In this document: positions 1 to 6,395 of the stretch, one piece after another
Numbering within the stretch: the first letter of the stretch is position 1
Layout: each line of letters begins with the position of its first letter
From: Pseudomonadota bacterium
GTDB lineage: Bacteria; Pseudomonadota; Gammaproteobacteria; Steroidobacterales; Steroidobacteraceae
NCBI GenBank assembly: GCA_021826035.1
Contig: JAKBBE010000123.1
Span: forward strand, 1,446 to 7,840
Length of the DNA stretch: 6,395 nt
Direction of reading: 5' to 3'
Notes under the pieces: model-generated
Told to the model about the DNA's origin: nothing
Databases searched by the model: none
Seen by the model: only the letters and a program-made list of their open reading frames with translations
Translations under genes and position numbers: made by a program

Positions 1-764
1 TAGACGGTCAACCCCTCTGCGCGCCAGTCGGCCACCAGGGCGTGCGTCTCGAGGCAGCAATGCGTCTGCACCTGCGTACGGAATTGCCCTTCGACGATGA
101 CTTCCGCCGCGGCGAGTCCTGCAGTGACATCACCGCGCGAGGCGCTGAGGTTCGGGCCATGGACATTGCCGTGCTGGGGCAATTGCCGCGCCGGACCGCC
201 GAAGAACTCCGTGCGTACCGTGTGCTCAAACACCCAGGGTGCATCGGGCCTGCGCGCCGCGTCGACCTCGGTGACAAACGGCAGCCGCTGGTAATCGACG
301 CCGATGAGCGCGATGGCTTCCTGCGCGGCCTGCGGCGTGAGCGCGGCGACCGCGGCGATGGGATCGCCCACGTACTGCAGGTGTCGCTGAGTCGGCTGCC
401 CGTCGCTCGCGCCGGCAAGCTCGACCGCCCGTCCGATGGGCCTGTCGATGACCTGCACGGCGAGCACGCCGGGATGGCGCTCGGCCGCTGCGACATCGAG
501 CGCGAGAATCCGGGCGTGCGGATGGGGCGAGCGCAGCAGACGCGCATGGAGCATGCCGGGCAGCTGCACATCGACGGTGAACGTTGCGCGGCCGGTCACC
601 TTGGCCCGACCGTTGCTGCGCGGCGTGGAGCGACCGACCGTCGTGAGTTCGGCATTGGGCGGCAGCGGCGGCGCTTCGCTCGCCGCGACGTGCCTGTCGA
701 CCTCACCGAGCGACACGCCGGCGATGCCGAGCGGATAGCGGTCGCTGCGGGTCTCCGCGGCCAT
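1..764 (-). CDS. Xanthine dehydrogenase-family molybdopterin-binding subunit, N-terminal part (runs off left edge)
   Basis: This is the large subunit of a molybdenum hydroxylase (xanthine dehydrogenase / aldehyde oxidase family). It would bind the molybdopterin cofactor and carry the substrate site; the substrate cannot be read from this portion. Translating the minus strand from ATG at 764 gives 254 codons without a stop, about a third of the usual 700-plus residues. Residues about 43-165 match the family's hammerhead domain: GRAKVTGRATFTVD near 52, LLRSPHPHARI near 76-86 and YVGDPIAAVAA at 131-141. The HCCLETH stretch at 235-241 matches the start of the cofactor-binding domain. The ATG lies 2 bp after the stop of the [2Fe-2S] gene with no good Shine-Dalgarno, so translation is probably coupled. 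The catalytic Glu, near the C-terminus in this family, is outside the window. The resemblance is to YagR/PaoC-like subunits, but no specific gene name is justified. Confidence 0.93.
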   Translation of the reverse strand, partial: MAAETRSDRYPLGIAGVSLGEVDRHVAASEAPPLPPNAELTTVGRSTPRSNGRAKVTGRATFTVDVQLPGMLHARLLRSPHPHARILALDVAAAERHPGVLAVQVIDRPIGRAVELAGASDGQPTQRHLQYVGDPIAAVAALTPQAAQEAIALIGVDYQRLPFVTEVDAARRPDAPWVFEHTVRTEFFGGPARQLPQHGNVHGPNLSASRGDVTAGLAAAEVIVEGQFRTQVQTHCCLETHALVADWRAEGLTV

Positions 765-766
765 GA

Positions 767-1318
767 TCAGCTATTCCCGCGCGCGGCAATGTCCATGACG
801 GCCGCGATTACGTGCGGGTAGGTGCCGCAACGGCACAGGTGTCCGCTGATCGCCGCCCGCACCTCCTCCTCCGTGGGATGCGGATTGCGCCTGAGCAATG
901 CCGCGCACGTCATGACCAGACCCGGGGTACAGAAGCCACACTGGAGCGCGTCGTGCGCGATGAAGGCGGACTGAACCGGGTGAAGCCTCTCGCCCTGGGC
1001 CAAGCCTTCAATGGTGGTGACCGCGCGGGCGCCCACATCGACGGCCAACACCATGCACGAGGCGACCGGCGCGCCATCGAGCCACACCGTACAGGCGCCA
1101 CAGGACCCGCGGTCGCACGCCACCTTCGTGCCGGTCAGATCCAGATGCTCGCGCAGCGCCTCGGCCAGCGTCGTCCTCGCCGAGAGCGACAGCGCGTACG
1201 CCGTGCCGTTGACCTCGAGCGTGACGGGTATCGACTCGGGGCCAACGACAGCCGCCGGCTCCTGCGGCGCGCAACCGCTCGAGATCGAGCGCCGGTCGTC
1301 TCGCATGCGGGTATTCAT
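767..1318 (-). CDS. (2Fe-2S)-binding subunit of a molybdenum hydroxylase
   Basis: This is the small electron-transfer subunit of a xanthine dehydrogenase-family enzyme, carrying electrons from the molybdenum centre through two [2Fe-2S] clusters. The 183-residue protein has the plant-ferredoxin cluster motif C-x4-C-x2-C-x11-C at Cys68, Cys73, Cys76 and Cys88. The second, helical cluster domain has CGFC at Cys127/Cys130 and CRC at Cys162/Cys164. All eight ligands are present, so it looks functional. An in-frame TAG 9 bp upstream of the ATG at 1318 rules out a longer N-terminus. The first 30 residues include an RR pair but no hydrophobic segment, so there is no credible Tat signal, unlike E. coli YagT/PaoA; a cytosolic enzyme is likely. 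It is the first gene of a minus-strand operon, 2 bp ahead of the molybdopterin subunit. No FAD subunit lies between them. The Shine-Dalgarno is weak. Confidence 0.95.
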   Translation of the reverse strand: MNTRMRDDRRSISSGCAPQEPAAVVGPESIPVTLEVNGTAYALSLSARTTLAEALREHLDLTGTKVACDRGSCGACTVWLDGAPVASCMVLAVDVGARAVTTIEGLAQGERLHPVQSAFIAHDALQCGFCTPGLVMTCAALLRRNPHPTEEEVRAAISGHLCRCGTYPHVIAAVMDIAARGNS

Positions 1319-2443: not shown

Positions 2444-3238
2444 TCAGTGATGTCGCGTACGACGTCGTCGGACGAGCATCACCATGCCGAGCAGCCCCGC
2501 ACCGAACAGCGCAAGCGAAGCGGGCTCGGGAACCTGGACGAGGGTGGATTGCACCTGGAAGCTCGGGTCGAGCGCACCGGTGAAGGAGAACGTATCGGCA
2601 ACGGTCAACGAGTACGAGCGGATCGGGTCCGGCCCCCCGTTGACGGTGATGCCCGTGCTCGGTCCGCTGAGTGTGAGCGAGCCGATGAGATTGCTGGCGC
2701 CGCACTGATTGCGGGCGTTTCCGCCACCCTCATCGTGATCGTGGTGATGATGATGCTCATCGTCACCCCAACCGTGATCATGGTCCTGATCATCGACGTC
2801 GCCGCCGCCACAAAAATACTGGTTGGCGGTGTCGTAATAGGCCGATGAGGTGATCACGCCCCCGGCCACGTTCCCGCTCAACCCGAGCTGAAACTGGTTG
2901 AGGTTGATCGGCACGGTGAACCCGGTGGCGCTGATGACGACGGTCAGCGGGGATTGGGAGCAGCCGCCGCCGGCGCACGTCACCACGTAATCACTCAGAT
3001 TCAGACCGACCTGATTGGGCGCATAGCTCGTTCCACCGGTACCCTGCTCGATGGTCCAGCCATTGAGCGTCCCGACGTAGGACACCGAGGAGGGGGTGCC
3101 GGTGCCGCCAATCAGCAGCGGAGTGGTGTGATTGCCGCTCGAGAGGAACATCTCGATGGGACCGGCGAGCGCCGTTCCGCCGCACAGCACACCGGCTGAC
3201 GCGGCGATCAGCACCAGTTTCGGCAAGCGTATCGACAT
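2444..3238 (-). CDS. PEP-CTERM sorting domain protein with His/Asp-rich insertion
   Basis: This is an exported protein of 264 residues. Residues 1-25 form a Sec signal peptide: RLPK basic segment, hydrophobic core, ALA cleavage site after residue 25. The C-terminus is a textbook PEP-CTERM signal: VPEPASL at 236-242, a hydrophobic helix to about 256, then an RRRR cluster and RHH end. Such proteins are processed by an exosortase and are often linked to exopolysaccharide or biofilm matrix. The Ser/Thr/Gly-rich body (26-235) looks like a beta-rich secreted domain with no enzymatic motif I recognise. Residues 147-170 are a His/Asp/Glu-rich insertion lying between Cys143 and Cys179; Cys88 and Cys93 form a second close pair. 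AGGAG 7 nt before the ATG supports the start. A sigma-54-like site lies upstream. It is a single gene, divergent from the SIR2-like/TIR operon. Confidence 0.93.
   Translation of the reverse strand: MSIRLPKLVLIAASAGVLCGGTALAGPIEMFLSSGNHTTPLLIGGTGTPSSVSYVGTLNGWTIEQGTGGTSYAPNQVGLNLSDYVVTCAGGGCSQSPLTVVISATGFTVPINLNQFQLGLSGNVAGGVITSSAYYDTANQYFCGGGDVDDQDHDHGWGDDEHHHHHDHDEGGGNARNQCGASNLIGSLTLSGPSTGITVNGGPDPIRSYSLTVADTFSFTGALDPSFQVQSTLVQVPEPASLALFGAGLLGMVMLVRRRRTRHH
2729..2800 (-). repeat. His/Asp-rich low-complexity tract in the PEP-CTERM gene
   Basis: This segment encodes residues 147-170 of the PEP-CTERM protein. It is nearly all Asp, His, Glu and Gly and includes a run of five consecutive His residues (162-166) followed by DHDE. 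The DNA is a degenerate run of CAT/CAC and GAT/GAC codons, which suggests growth by slippage or local duplication. Alternating His and acidic residues are typical of Zn, Ni or Cu binding stretches; metal binding here is an inference. Confidence 0.8.
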
Positions 3239-3500: not shown

Positions 3501-4877
3501 ATGAACGCCGCAGCCCCCATGCCGCCCGAGGCGGCATTGGACGAGAACGCGTGGGACGATCTCCTAAGCTTCATCGAGGAGCGTCGGGTCATCCCGATCG
3601 TCGGCCCGGAGTTGCTCAAAGTCACCAGCGCCGATCAGCCTCGGTTGCTCTACGATCTGCTCGCCGAGCGCCTGGCGACACGCCTGAATGTTGACCCGGG
3701 AGAGCTCCCCGCGGGCTACTCGCTGAACGATGTGGTGTGCCGGTTTCTCGCCCATCGCGGCCGGCGCGAGGAGGCCTACGTTCGGCTGCGCGGGGTGCTG
3801 AAGGACCTGGACGTCGCGCCGCCCACGGCGCTGCGACAGCTCGCGGCCATCACCGACTTCGACTTGTACGTCTCCACCACATTCGACTCGCTGCTCGAGA
3901 CGGCGATCAACCTCGCCCGCTTCGATGGGGCGCACTCGACCGAGTCGCTCTCCTACTCGCCCAATCGCGTGACGGATCTGCCCGCCGAGCGTGAGCGGCT
4001 CACCCGGCCCATGGTGTATCACCTGTTTGGCAAGATCTCCGCCTCCCCGACCTACGTCGTCTCGGAGGAGGACCTGCTCGAGTATCTGTGCGCGCTGCAA
4101 AATGAACACCTGGCGCCCGAGCGACTGTTCTACGAGCTCGAGCACAGCCACCTGCTGGTGATCGGCGGCTCGCTCAGCAACTGGGTCGCGCGGCTGTTTC
4201 TGCGCATGGCCAAGCGCCAGCGGCTCTCCGCCCCGCGCGACGTCGGGGAGGTGCTGGCCGATGACCTGATCGGCGAGGAGCCGCGGCTGGTGAGCTTTCT
4301 GCAGCAGGTGAGCGTGCATACGCGCATTTACTGCGGCGCGGAACGCTTCGTCGCGGAGCTGCACGAGCGCTGGCAGGCGCGGCGCAAACCCGTCGGCGCG
4401 AGCGCCGATCCCAGCCGCTTCCTGCCCCCCGCCAAGGAGATGCCCGAGAACGCGGTGTTCATCAGCTACGCGCGCGAGGACCTGCCGGCGGTGCAGCGGA
4501 TCAAGGCGGGCCTGGAAGCGGCCGGCATCACCACCTGGTTCGACCTCGAGCGGCTGGAAAGCGGCGATGACTATGACCTGAAGGTGCAGCGCAACATCGC
4601 CCGCTGCGCGTACTTCATCGCGGTGGTCTCGCAGACCACCGAGCGCCGCCTCGAGGCGTACTTCCGCCGGGAGTGGAGCTATGCGCTCGATCGCACGCGC
4701 AACATGGCCGACGGCGCGCTGTTCATCCTGCCGGTGACCATCGACGCCACGAACCCGATCGGCGCACTCGTTCCGGAGCGCTTCCGGGCGCTGCACTTTG
4801 CCCAGCTCGAGGGCGGTGAGGTCACTGCCGAGTTCGCCCGCCGGTTGGCGCAGCTGATGCAGGCGCGCGGCGCGTGA
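3501..4877 (+). CDS. SIR2-like / TIR domain fusion protein
   Basis: This 458-residue soluble protein has two domains. Residues about 17-290 resemble the SIR2-like fold of bacterial immune and signalling proteins: RRVIPIVGPELL (28-39) at the nucleotide-binding loop, YVSTTFDSLLETA (123-135), VYHLFGKIS (172-180), and LLVIGGSLSNWVARLFL (218-234). Residues about 317-418 are a TIR domain: NAVFISYARED (317-327), GITTWFDLERLESGDDYD (342-359), YFIAVVSQTTE (371-381), and REWSYAL (390-396), where Glu391 fits the usual TIR NADase glutamate. The SIR2-like part has Thr127 and Phe176 where active enzymes have Asn and His, so it is probably not a hydrolase. The TIR domain may cleave NAD+ or make a nucleotide signal; this is inferred from family knowledge. 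The ATG at 3501 has no clear Shine-Dalgarno; a second ATG at 3519 is possible. The gene overlaps the STAND gene by 4 bp. Confidence 0.9.
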   Translation: MNAAAPMPPEAALDENAWDDLLSFIEERRVIPIVGPELLKVTSADQPRLLYDLLAERLATRLNVDPGELPAGYSLNDVVCRFLAHRGRREEAYVRLRGVLKDLDVAPPTALRQLAAITDFDLYVSTTFDSLLETAINLARFDGAHSTESLSYSPNRVTDLPAERERLTRPMVYHLFGKISASPTYVVSEEDLLEYLCALQNEHLAPERLFYELEHSHLLVIGGSLSNWVARLFLRMAKRQRLSAPRDVGEVLADDLIGEEPRLVSFLQQVSVHTRIYCGAERFVAELHERWQARRKPVGASADPSRFLPPAKEMPENAVFISYAREDLPAVQRIKAGLEAAGITTWFDLERLESGDDYDLKVQRNIARCAYFIAVVSQTTERRLEAYFRREWSYALDRTRNMADGALFILPVTIDATNPIGALVPERFRALHFAQLEGGEVTAEFARRLAQLMQARGA

Positions 4878-6395
4878 GCGCTTCTGCGGAGTCTGTGCGC
4901 ACGGCAGGCGGACCCGACTCGCAGGCGCCCGTCGATGCGCGCAACCCCTACCTCGGACTCATCTCCTTCACCGAGGAGACCCGCGAGTACTTCTTCGGGC
5001 GCGAGGAGGAAGTCGCCGAGCTGGCCCGCCGCGTGCAGCGCAAGCTGCTGACGGTGCTGTTCGGCAAGTCGGGACTCGGCAAGACTTCGATCCTGCGGGC
5101 CGGTCTGCTGCCGCGACTGCGCCGGCACGGCTATTGCCCGGTGTACGTGCGCATCGCGTACGGCCGCGACAGCCCCGAGCCCGCCGAGCAGATCAAGGCA
5201 GCCATCCGGCGCGCCGCGAGCGTCTCGGGCGAGTGGACGCAGGCGGGCGTCGCCGCCGCCGGGGAATCGCTCTGGGAGTTCCTGCATCACCGCGACGACG
5301 TGCTGCGCGATGCCGACGGGGCCCCACTGCTGCCGCTGCTCATCTTCGATCAGTTCGAGGAGCTCTTCACCCTCGCGCAAGGCGATGAGTTCGGTCGCGC
5401 ACGCGCGGCGAGCTTCATCGAGGAACTCGCGGACCTGGTGGAGAACCGCCCGCCCAAGGCGTTCGAGGCACGGCTCGATGAGGACGACAGCGCCGCGGAG
5501 CGCTTCGACTTCGCCCGCAGCGACTACCGGGTGCTGATCGCGCTGCGCGAGGACTACCTTGCTCCCCTCGAGAGCCTGCGGCAGATCATGCCGAGCCTGC
5601 TGCAGAACCGTGTGCGCCTCGGCCCCATGACGAGCGCGCAGGCCCTTGAAGCGGTGCGCCGGCCCGGTGGCCATCTGGTCTCTGAGGCAACCGCCTCAGC
5701 GATCGTACGCTTCGTGGCCGGCGGCTCGCAGCGCGCCGAGGCAACCGTCGAGCCCTCGCTGCTGTCGCTGGTCTGCCGCGAGCTGAACGATGCACGCCTT
5801 GCGCAGGGACGCGAGGAGATCTCGCTCGAGCTGCTCGGCGGCTCGCACGAGAGCATCCTGGTCAACTTCTACGAGCGCTCCCTCGCCGACCAGCCTGCCG
5901 GCGTGCGGCGGGTCATCGAGGATGAGTTGCTGACCGACTCGGGCTTTCGCGAGAACGTCGCCGAGGAGCGATTGCTGAAGCGCTTCCAGGCAGCCGGGGC
6001 CGCCCCGGAGGCACTCTCGACCCTGGTCAATCGCCGGCTGCTGCGCATCGAGGAACGGCTCGACGTGCGTCGGGTGGAACTCACGCACGATGTGCTCTGC
6101 GGGGTCGTCAAGACGAGCCGCGACCAGCGCCAGGAGCGCGAGGCGCGCGAGACGGCCGAGCGCGTGCTCGAGGAGCAGCGGGAGCGCGCGCGCGCCGCGC
6201 GCCATGCCCTGCGACGGGCACGGGCCGTTGCGCTCGGCTGCATCCTGCTCGCCGCTCTCGCGCTGTCCGCTGCACTCTTTGCCTACGTGAGCGCCGAGCG
6301 TGCGCGCCGCGCCGAACGCCTGGCGCTGCAGAACCGGGCACTCGCCGAGCAGGCGCGCAATCATGCCGAGCACCTGCTCGGCTATCTGGCGGATG
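4874..6395 (+). CDS. nSTAND1-type P-loop NTPase with transmembrane helix (runs off right edge)
   Basis: Translation from GTG at 4874 gives 507 codons without a stop up to the edge. NPYLGLISFTEE (24-35) and YFFGREEEV (39-47) are the usual entry to the novel STAND NTPase 1 domain. Walker A is GKSGLGKTS (64-72) and Walker B is LLIFDQFEELF (155-165). ALREDYLAPL (223-232) and the winged-helix-like LTHDVLCGVV (403-412) complete the STAND core. Residues about 414-450 are Glu/Arg-rich and probably coiled coil. Residues 451-471 are a transmembrane helix, followed by a second charged helix reading into the edge; related proteins often continue into TPR, WD40 or similar sensor repeats, not visible here. 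STAND proteins act as ATP-dependent switches that oligomerise on ligand binding. GTGA overlap with the SIR2-like/TIR gene implies translational coupling and a shared job, likely sensor plus effector. No Shine-Dalgarno is obvious. Confidence 0.92.
   Translation, partial: MSASAESVRTAGGPDSQAPVDARNPYLGLISFTEETREYFFGREEEVAELARRVQRKLLTVLFGKSGLGKTSILRAGLLPRLRRHGYCPVYVRIAYGRDSPEPAEQIKAAIRRAASVSGEWTQAGVAAAGESLWEFLHHRDDVLRDADGAPLLPLLIFDQFEELFTLAQGDEFGRARAASFIEELADLVENRPPKAFEARLDEDDSAAERFDFARSDYRVLIALREDYLAPLESLRQIMPSLLQNRVRLGPMTSAQALEAVRRPGGHLVSEATASAIVRFVAGGSQRAEATVEPSLLSLVCRELNDARLAQGREEISLELLGGSHESILVNFYERSLADQPAGVRRVIEDELLTDSGFRENVAEERLLKRFQAAGAAPEALSTLVNRRLLRIEERLDVRRVELTHDVLCGVVKTSRDQRQEREARETAERVLEEQRERARAARHALRRARAVALGCILLAALALSAALFAYVSAERARRAERLALQNRALAEQARNHAEHLLGYLAD

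Follow-up and report, generated by a model that had tools for sequence, protein, structure and literature searches.

A SIR2-like/TIR protein paired with a membrane-anchored STAND NTPase: probable alarm component of a so far undescribed, Thoeris-like immune circuit

The window analysed here, a stretch of 6,395 nucleotides from a Steroidobacteraceae genome (contig JAKBBE010000123.1), encodes in its 3′ part a SIR2-like/TIR fusion protein and, immediately downstream, a STAND nucleoside triphosphatase (NTPase). That these genes form a real two-gene unit is strongly supported by their adjacency across genomes, and there is strong support as well for the membrane tether and the NTPase switch. The pair probably makes up the alarm-raising part of an immune circuit that resembles Thoeris and is so far undescribed. 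With a probability of about 0.5, we read it as a TIR enzyme, STAND-gated and tethered to the membrane, that makes a messenger for SLOG/SLATT membrane effectors, and the first half of this mechanism rests on anatomy and co-occurrence.

Results

Conservation of the gene pair

The fusion gene occupies positions 3501..4877 of the plus strand and encodes 458 amino acids, as established by open reading frame (ORF) calling and Pfam search. The nSTAND1 NTPase gene starts with GTG and runs from 4874 to 6395 (+), where its ORF is still open at the window edge; the part inside the window amounts to 507 amino acids, and the 3′ end lies beyond it. The start of the second gene and the stop of the first share the nucleotides GTGA (4874..4877, +), an overlap described in the initial annotation, confirmed here by ORFs and Pfam and pointing to translational coupling.

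A genome scan returned 89 relatives, of which 80 loci were kept; genes were called with a simple ORF chooser, which missed SIR2-TIR in L152 and L153. The adjacency that the initial annotation had proposed to examine holds widely, since STAND is the next gene downstream of SIR2-TIR in 76 of the 80 loci, and even a remote relative (L119) keeps the pair, at 30% and 36.5% identity. The STAND start lies at most 60 bp from the SIR2-TIR stop in 65 loci, 61-200 bp in 9 and more than 200 bp in 2, and a possible 4-bp in-frame NTGA start/stop overlap occurs in 62 of the 76. Among the four loci missing STAND, three (L012, L015 and L024) sit on contigs with no more than 0-132 bp left beyond SIR2-TIR, and the fourth (L026) has no STAND within the 1,933 bp that follow; L064 has a broken SIR2-TIR reading frame.

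Furthermore, in the family of genome G016 (inferred to be Lysobacteraceae), full SIR2-TIR and STAND genes are found, adjacent, in the same 7 of 149 genomes; another genome of this family (G078) gave a partial, distant SIR2-TIR match and was scored as being without the unit. Across 57 loci, the distances between SIR2-TIR proteins track those between their STAND partners (r = 0.84; p = 0.0005 by permutation), host ancestry not being removed from this value. Related proteins number 4,153 among 8,000 scored, a count that may include TIR-only relatives, and 418 among 7,999 scored for a second clade, that of L119 from Paraburkholderia. In G012, a SIR2-TIR copy of 47% identity adjoins an nSTAND gene.

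Some variations in layout were also observed. Two SIR2-TIR/nSTAND pairs stand in tandem in L157 (5891-16553), with larger STAND proteins of 1,283 and 1,240 amino acids, and a protein of about 125-130 amino acids, which we take to be of the four-helix-bundle type, is encoded between SIR2-TIR and STAND in L151 (9289-9660) and L152 (9050-9448). On the Paraburkholderia megaplasmid of L119, a CHAT (caspase-like) gene (1-1461, +) precedes this divergent pair by about 4.5 kb.

The SIR2-like/TIR protein

The SIR2-like fold extends over about residues 8-296 and includes a SIR2_2 (PF13289) match at 3864..4229 (+; residues 122-243; E = 9.7e-14, 52.1 bits against a cut-off of 24.5). A predicted structure of the protein (m8c61285c6d6a) supports the fold, and this part gives structural matches to ThsA, DSR2, KomC, Avs5 and SPARSA chains. 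A sequence profile of this half found no sirtuin among PDB chains, so the register of catalytic residues was set by alignment with other SIR2_2 proteins. An alignable protein came from 27 of the 30 loci retrieved from other genomes; [ST]TN[YFW]D is present in 24 of the 27, and the HG histidine was detected by a simple pattern in 20.

In this register, Thr127 (3879..3881, +) stands at the site of the catalytic Asn (TTN[YFW]D) of active SIR2_2 proteins, and Phe176 (4026..4028, +) at that of the HG His of active SIR2 proteins. Among homologues, the Asn position is Thr in 197/197 rows and is without Asn in the 120/120 rows of the second clade, and the His position is Phe or Leu in 197/197 and 120/120 rows; these 317 rows, to which each protein search contributes its best 120 at most, were not deduplicated, and window, loci and database proteins partly overlap. 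GPELL (3603..3617, +; residues 35-39) replaces the sirtuin glycine-rich motif, the letters of which are GAG(I/V)S. Such a glycine-rich motif is attributed to sirtuins in the available part of PMC12931631.

The TIR_2 domain (PF13676) covers 4455..4835 (+; residues 319-445; E = 1.2e-19). Its predicted catalytic residue, Glu391 (4671..4673, +), aligns with the Glu of FFKKEW in PDB 3h16 and is kept in 197/197 and 120/120 rows. In a structural comparison, this TIR folds like that of SPARTA, which is an enzyme depleting nicotinamide adenine dinucleotide (NAD+). As both catalytic residues of the SIR2 fold are gone from 317/317 rows, the SIR2 half is degenerate and the TIR alone is likely to be an enzyme. 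The earlier description of two NAD-linked folds on one polypeptide thus stands as regards the presence of a SIR2-like fold and a TIR, and falls as regards the catalytic residues of the former. Even so worn, the SIR2-like half is about as conserved as the TIR, with mean pairwise identities of 0.757 and 0.729 over 57 loci.

The STAND protein: switch, membrane helix and sensor

The nSTAND1 domain (PF20703) spans 4946..6184 (+; residues 25-437; E = 4e-38, 132.5 bits against a cut-off of 27.1). It contains a Walker A motif, GKSGLGKT (5063..5086, +; residues 64-71), a Walker B motif, LLIFDQFEE (5336..5362, +; residues 155-163), and a THD motif (6083..6091, +; residues 404-406), which we regard as the counterpart of MHD elsewhere among STAND proteins. 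Each listed position of the three motifs is identical in at least 45 of 49 aligned relatives, with THD in 49/49, so the Walker motifs first reported as intact are indeed conserved. A sequence search of the PDB with the STAND protein gave no match.

A transmembrane helix follows at 6209..6298 (+; about residues 446-475), and the TPR sensor then lies beyond the window. In agreement with the membrane anchor initially predicted, a hydrophobic helix is present in 49/49 relatives and is the sole segment above threshold in 46; L041, L050 and L070 have a second hydrophobic segment, within the NTPase part. The long helix around the transmembrane segment fits the coiled coil mentioned in the initial annotation. 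In relatives, the full STAND protein reaches about 1,050-1,120 amino acids and combines this helix with a C-terminal TPR superhelix; among the 61 STAND frames that end before their contig does, 59 are longer than 1,030 amino acids and two, in L055 and L075, are shorter. Lys and Arg are commoner before the helix than after it in 46 of 49 relatives, a positive-inside bias that hints weakly at a periplasmic location of the TPR part.

Over the same 57 loci, mean pairwise identity is 0.752 for nSTAND and 0.297 for TPR. Between L030 and L032 it is 0.90 for SIR2-TIR, 0.86 for the NTPase and 0.21 for the TPR part, and between L021 and L039 the values are 0.87, 0.88 and 0.38, respectively; L025 and L034 are 94-100% identical up to residue 550, then drop to 58-80% and return to 92% at the end. 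The sensor TPRs thus look mosaic and resemble the interchangeable recognition modules of immune receptors, a resemblance that does not prove a pathogen drive. The ratio of nonsynonymous to synonymous substitution rates (dN/dS) of the TPR part is 0.16-0.47, above that of the NTPase and of SIR2-TIR in 11/11 pairs, which were hand-picked and of which three share L002-L004.

SLOG/SLATT genes near the unit and across genomes

A third gene, coding for a SLOG-SLATT, a SLATT or a TPR-S-SLOG-cyclase protein, lies within about 600 bp of the unit in 27 of the 80 loci, its types having been found by clustering of flank genes. A fusion of SLOG with a two-transmembrane-helix (2TM)/SLATT-like part is found at this distance in 16 loci, and at 2.5 and 2.1 kb in L059 and L066; a SLATT_1 protein is found in 5. 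Six loci (L014, L017, L021, L027, L029 and L039) have nearby a TPR-S (PF20308)-SLOG-adenylate/guanylate-cyclase protein, scanned with Pfam in L021 and L027, hinting at a cyclic-nucleotide branch. The label SLOG is a reading of alignments plus one sub-threshold SLOG-family match (E = 0.011). One SLATT-only protein matched SLATT_1 at 24.6 bits, against a cut-off of 26.3; the L056 fusion gave a weak DUF4231 match only and the L066 fusion none, and 0 of 5 third-gene proteins matched a PADLOC model at E 0.001.

At the genome level, the SLOG-SLATT/SLATT profile matched in 25 of 27 unit-bearing genomes, 24 of them at E 4e-60 or better. Co-occurrence was counted at E 1e-40, and the Fisher tests are without kinship correction. 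In the family of G016, SLOG-SLATT is present in 7/7 unit-bearing genomes vs 28/142 others (p = 2.4e-5), and in the family of G021 (inferred to be Opitutaceae), in 15/18 vs 25/132 (p = 1.1e-7); the 18 SIR2-TIR genomes of the latter were hand-picked by a match into the SIR2 part, the matches in G415, G517 and G507 being partial. A TIR of any kind closely similar to this one is found in 48 of 150 genomes of the G021 family, and SLOG-SLATT in 37 of these 48 vs 3 of the other 102 (p = 8.9e-22). With this co-occurrence and the third gene of the 27 loci, the two genes taken initially as the whole system are probably not all of it. A strict three-gene operon was considered and rejected: the third gene is not always of one type, nor on one side or strand, most loci have none close by, and it is often beside another TIR.

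We further examined 20 SLOG-SLATT regions away from the unit; 13 of them have a TIR frame no more than 600 bp from the SLOG-SLATT gene, measured between open frames and not start codons; the ORF chooser had missed SLOG-SLATT in L154, L155 and 4 of the 20 regions, which were recovered in a recount. The one SLOG-SLATT-linked TIR that was scanned (L108) passes the Pfam ThsB_TIR cut-off (26.4 vs 21.2 bits). These TIR neighbours support SLOG-SLATT as a TIR effector, and an unlinked copy may equally serve another TIR.

In several Opitutaceae, the unit lies amid tandem TIR-TPR genes. In L150 (1-19850), the pair is surrounded by eight more TIR genes, all on one strand, and TIR-TPR tandem arrays are also seen in L153, L154, L155 and L156, with a SLOG-SLATT gene in several cases.

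Flanking genes

Upstream of the unit and divergent from it, the window carries a gene for a PEP-CTERM protein with a long Asp/His-rich stretch (2447-3238, -), and a secreted-type protein cluster precedes the unit in five related loci and no others (L002-L005 and L015). Also upstream are a DUF4440 gene, identified with Pfam, and, at 3-1318 (-), two genes of a molybdopterin xanthine/aldehyde dehydrogenase, one for an Ald_Xan_dh_C/MoCoBD_1 part and one for a Fer2/Fer2_2 subunit. The flank scan covered 103 of the 112 nearest other genes at 28 loci and no control regions. The Pfam families found are mixed and partly metabolic among the 25 of 132 listed, and the PADLOC matches comprise RtcR-type regulators, helicases and two TIRs among the 25 of 32 families listed. 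A recurrent housekeeping neighbour was sought in these mixed flanks and not found.

Discussion

Proposed mechanism

In the mechanism that we propose, a trigger would bind the C-terminal TPR superhelix of the STAND protein, and ATP-driven assembly of nSTAND1 at the membrane would cluster the SIR2-TIR partner. The SIR2-like part, presumed not to hydrolyse NAD, would serve as a scaffold or a nucleotide-binding regulator, and clustering would activate the TIR to convert NAD+ into an ADP-ribose-type messenger. The target of this messenger would be a protein of the SLOG-SLATT, SLATT or TPR-S-SLOG-cyclase type, whose gene either adjoins the unit or lies at another place in the genome, and the 2TM parts would then permeabilise the membrane and halt the cell. 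The trigger, complex formation, the messenger, pore action and the immune purpose are the parts of this model that we infer; the last is favoured by the module content and the diversifying sensor.

A tentative version, which we regard as possible, makes the unit a new branch of TIR messenger immunity that resembles the nucleotide-binding leucine-rich repeat receptors (NLRs) of plants and animals. There, a TPR sensor facing the periplasm or the membrane would, together with the STAND switch, drive the TIR synthase, and the sirtuin half would be a scaffold or a messenger sensor. A single SLOG-SLATT channel would serve both the unit and the TIR-TPR arrays of Opitutaceae, so that many interchangeable sensors would converge on one effector.

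Evidence against and rival explanations

Several observations weigh against a TIR messenger synthase acting on SLOG/SLATT effectors in immunity. The window ends ahead of any possible third gene, and such a gene is absent within about 600 bp in 53 of the 80 loci, many of which are cut by contig ends. SLATT_1 was recognised in 2 of 5 SLOG-2TM fusions scanned, at 24.0 and 24.8 bits, under the cut-off of 26.3. Among unit-bearing genomes, G018 and G025 gave no SLOG-SLATT profile match and G008 matched solely via its TPR-S-SLOG-cyclase, and in the G021 family, G390, G405 and G461 are without SLOG-SLATT. The unlinked SLOG-SLATT genes have a TIR neighbour in 7 of 11 regions from unit-less genomes and in 6 of 9 from unit-bearing ones; as they lie mostly beside another TIR, their service in trans to the unit is unproven. 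As for immunity, a test for positive selection on the TPR part gave a pairwise dN/dS that is raised yet below 1. On clustering with known defence genes, a point raised in the initial annotation, the scan showed no defence-island signal in the flanks of the 28 loci, where PADLOC matches (E 1e-10) are scattered and generic. Phage records contained no relative at E 1e-10, nor did viral contigs by two peptide patterns.

Part of this evidence could be claimed by a stand-alone abortive-infection effector, in which the activated TIR would deplete NAD+ and kill or stall the cell, the nearby SLOG/SLATT genes belonging to other systems. The many loci lacking a close third gene, the SPARTA-like TIR fold and the TIR neighbours of the unlinked SLOG-SLATT genes all fit this explanation, which we nevertheless hold to be doubtful given that SLOG-SLATT co-occurs genome-wide with the unit in two families and that three different nucleotide-signalling gene types adjoin it. 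The mixed flanks without a defence-island signal and the missing phage and viral copies speak rather for non-immune membrane signalling, as do the single plasmid record with a relative (E 1e-20), a 2.6-Mb replicon typed non-mobilizable, and the charge bias that may place the TPR part in the periplasm. The STAND-TPR protein would then sense an envelope, metabolic or social cue, the TIR messenger would set the physiology of the cell, and sensor divergence would reflect a change of ligand and not an arms race. We consider this unlikely in view of the patchy presence of the unit (7 of 149 genomes in the family of G016), the replacement of the TPR part between close relatives such as L030 and L032, and the recurrence of TIR, STAND and SLOG modules in characterised defence systems.

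It is highly improbable that the SIR2-like half retains catalysis through a modified active site, which would put two NAD+-consuming activities in one protein. Its conservation, on a par with that of the TIR, is in line with such an activity, and so is PaAvs5-1, which functions with NG in place of HG according to the available part of PMC12931631. Against this, the same part reports that an Asn-to-Ala mutant of PaAvs5-1 loses immunity, and here the Asn is lost in every row and the glycine-rich motif is changed as well.

Should the proposed mechanism be correct, a gene pair widespread in environmental bacteria would equip TIR messenger signalling with a separate gate, anchored in the membrane and driven by NTP, in an arrangement that recalls the NLRs of plants and animals. 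The unit would, in addition, exemplify a sirtuin fold that has lost catalysis and yet stays strongly constrained. TIR enzymes would, moreover, be joined to SLOG-SLATT membrane effectors, a prediction found in the available part of PMC9503650.

Comparison with known systems

In Thoeris, the TIR of ThsB makes an ADP-ribose-type messenger and the ThsA effector is a SIR2-SLOG or a TM-macro protein; a single ThsA may be accompanied by one ThsB or by several, as stated in the available part of PMC11204291. The unit is Thoeris-like by its TIR with a catalytic Glu and its SLOG-bearing partner gene and, in Opitutaceae, by the several TIR genes around few effectors. Unlike Thoeris, it carries its TIR on the same chain as a degenerate SIR2 and has a separate nSTAND1-TPR protein as the second member of the pair, and its partners are SLOG-SLATT, SLATT or TPR-S-SLOG-cyclase proteins. 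The window protein matched the PADLOC ThsB model weakly (E = 0.0035) and did not reach the Pfam ThsB_TIR cut-off. A second SIR2_2 protein is missing from 4 of 5 unit-bearing genomes and is another SIR2-TIR in the fifth (G012), so these genomes have no SIR2-SLOG ThsA at that threshold, TM-macro proteins not having been searched for. Membership of the unit in Thoeris could not be established, and no strong full-length PADLOC match was found to both genes, the TIR part alone being strongly matched (best E = 2.2e-12; STAND part, 0.05 at best).

With Avs5 (AVAST type 5), a single SIR2-STAND-repeat protein, the unit has in common the SIR2 fold, the STAND switch and repeats of the TPR kind at the C-terminus. 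The unit cannot be classed as an Avs5, since its SIR2 and STAND are on separate polypeptides; it further differs by an nSTAND1 protein with a transmembrane helix, by the loss of the SIR2 Asn and His, and by the presence of a TIR. The available part of PMC12931631 gives Avs5 as predicted nSTAND3 and PaAvs5-1 as requiring its SIR2 Asn.

According to the available part of PMC8195603, nSTAND1 is the central NTPase of multi-domain predicted counter-invader proteins, sometimes in EACC1 systems, and that part describes no SIR2-TIR with an nSTAND1-TM-TPR protein or a SLOG-SLATT gene. Closest to the putative effector arm are the Firmicute phage neighbourhoods in which a TIR lies beside a 2TM SLATT gene, predicted to encode a membrane effector regulated by ADP-ribose derivatives (PMC9503650, in the part available, which mentions no STAND gate or SIR2 fusion). 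These neighbourhoods are phage-borne, whereas the SIR2-TIR/STAND unit has no phage or viral copy among those found. Our search of the literature, with most subscription journals and all preprints outside it, returned no published account of a SIR2-TIR and nSTAND1-TM-TPR pair, which may thus be in print. Altogether, the unit counts as a variant of the TIR/STAND NAD-signalling systems, Thoeris-like in some parts and Avs-like in others.

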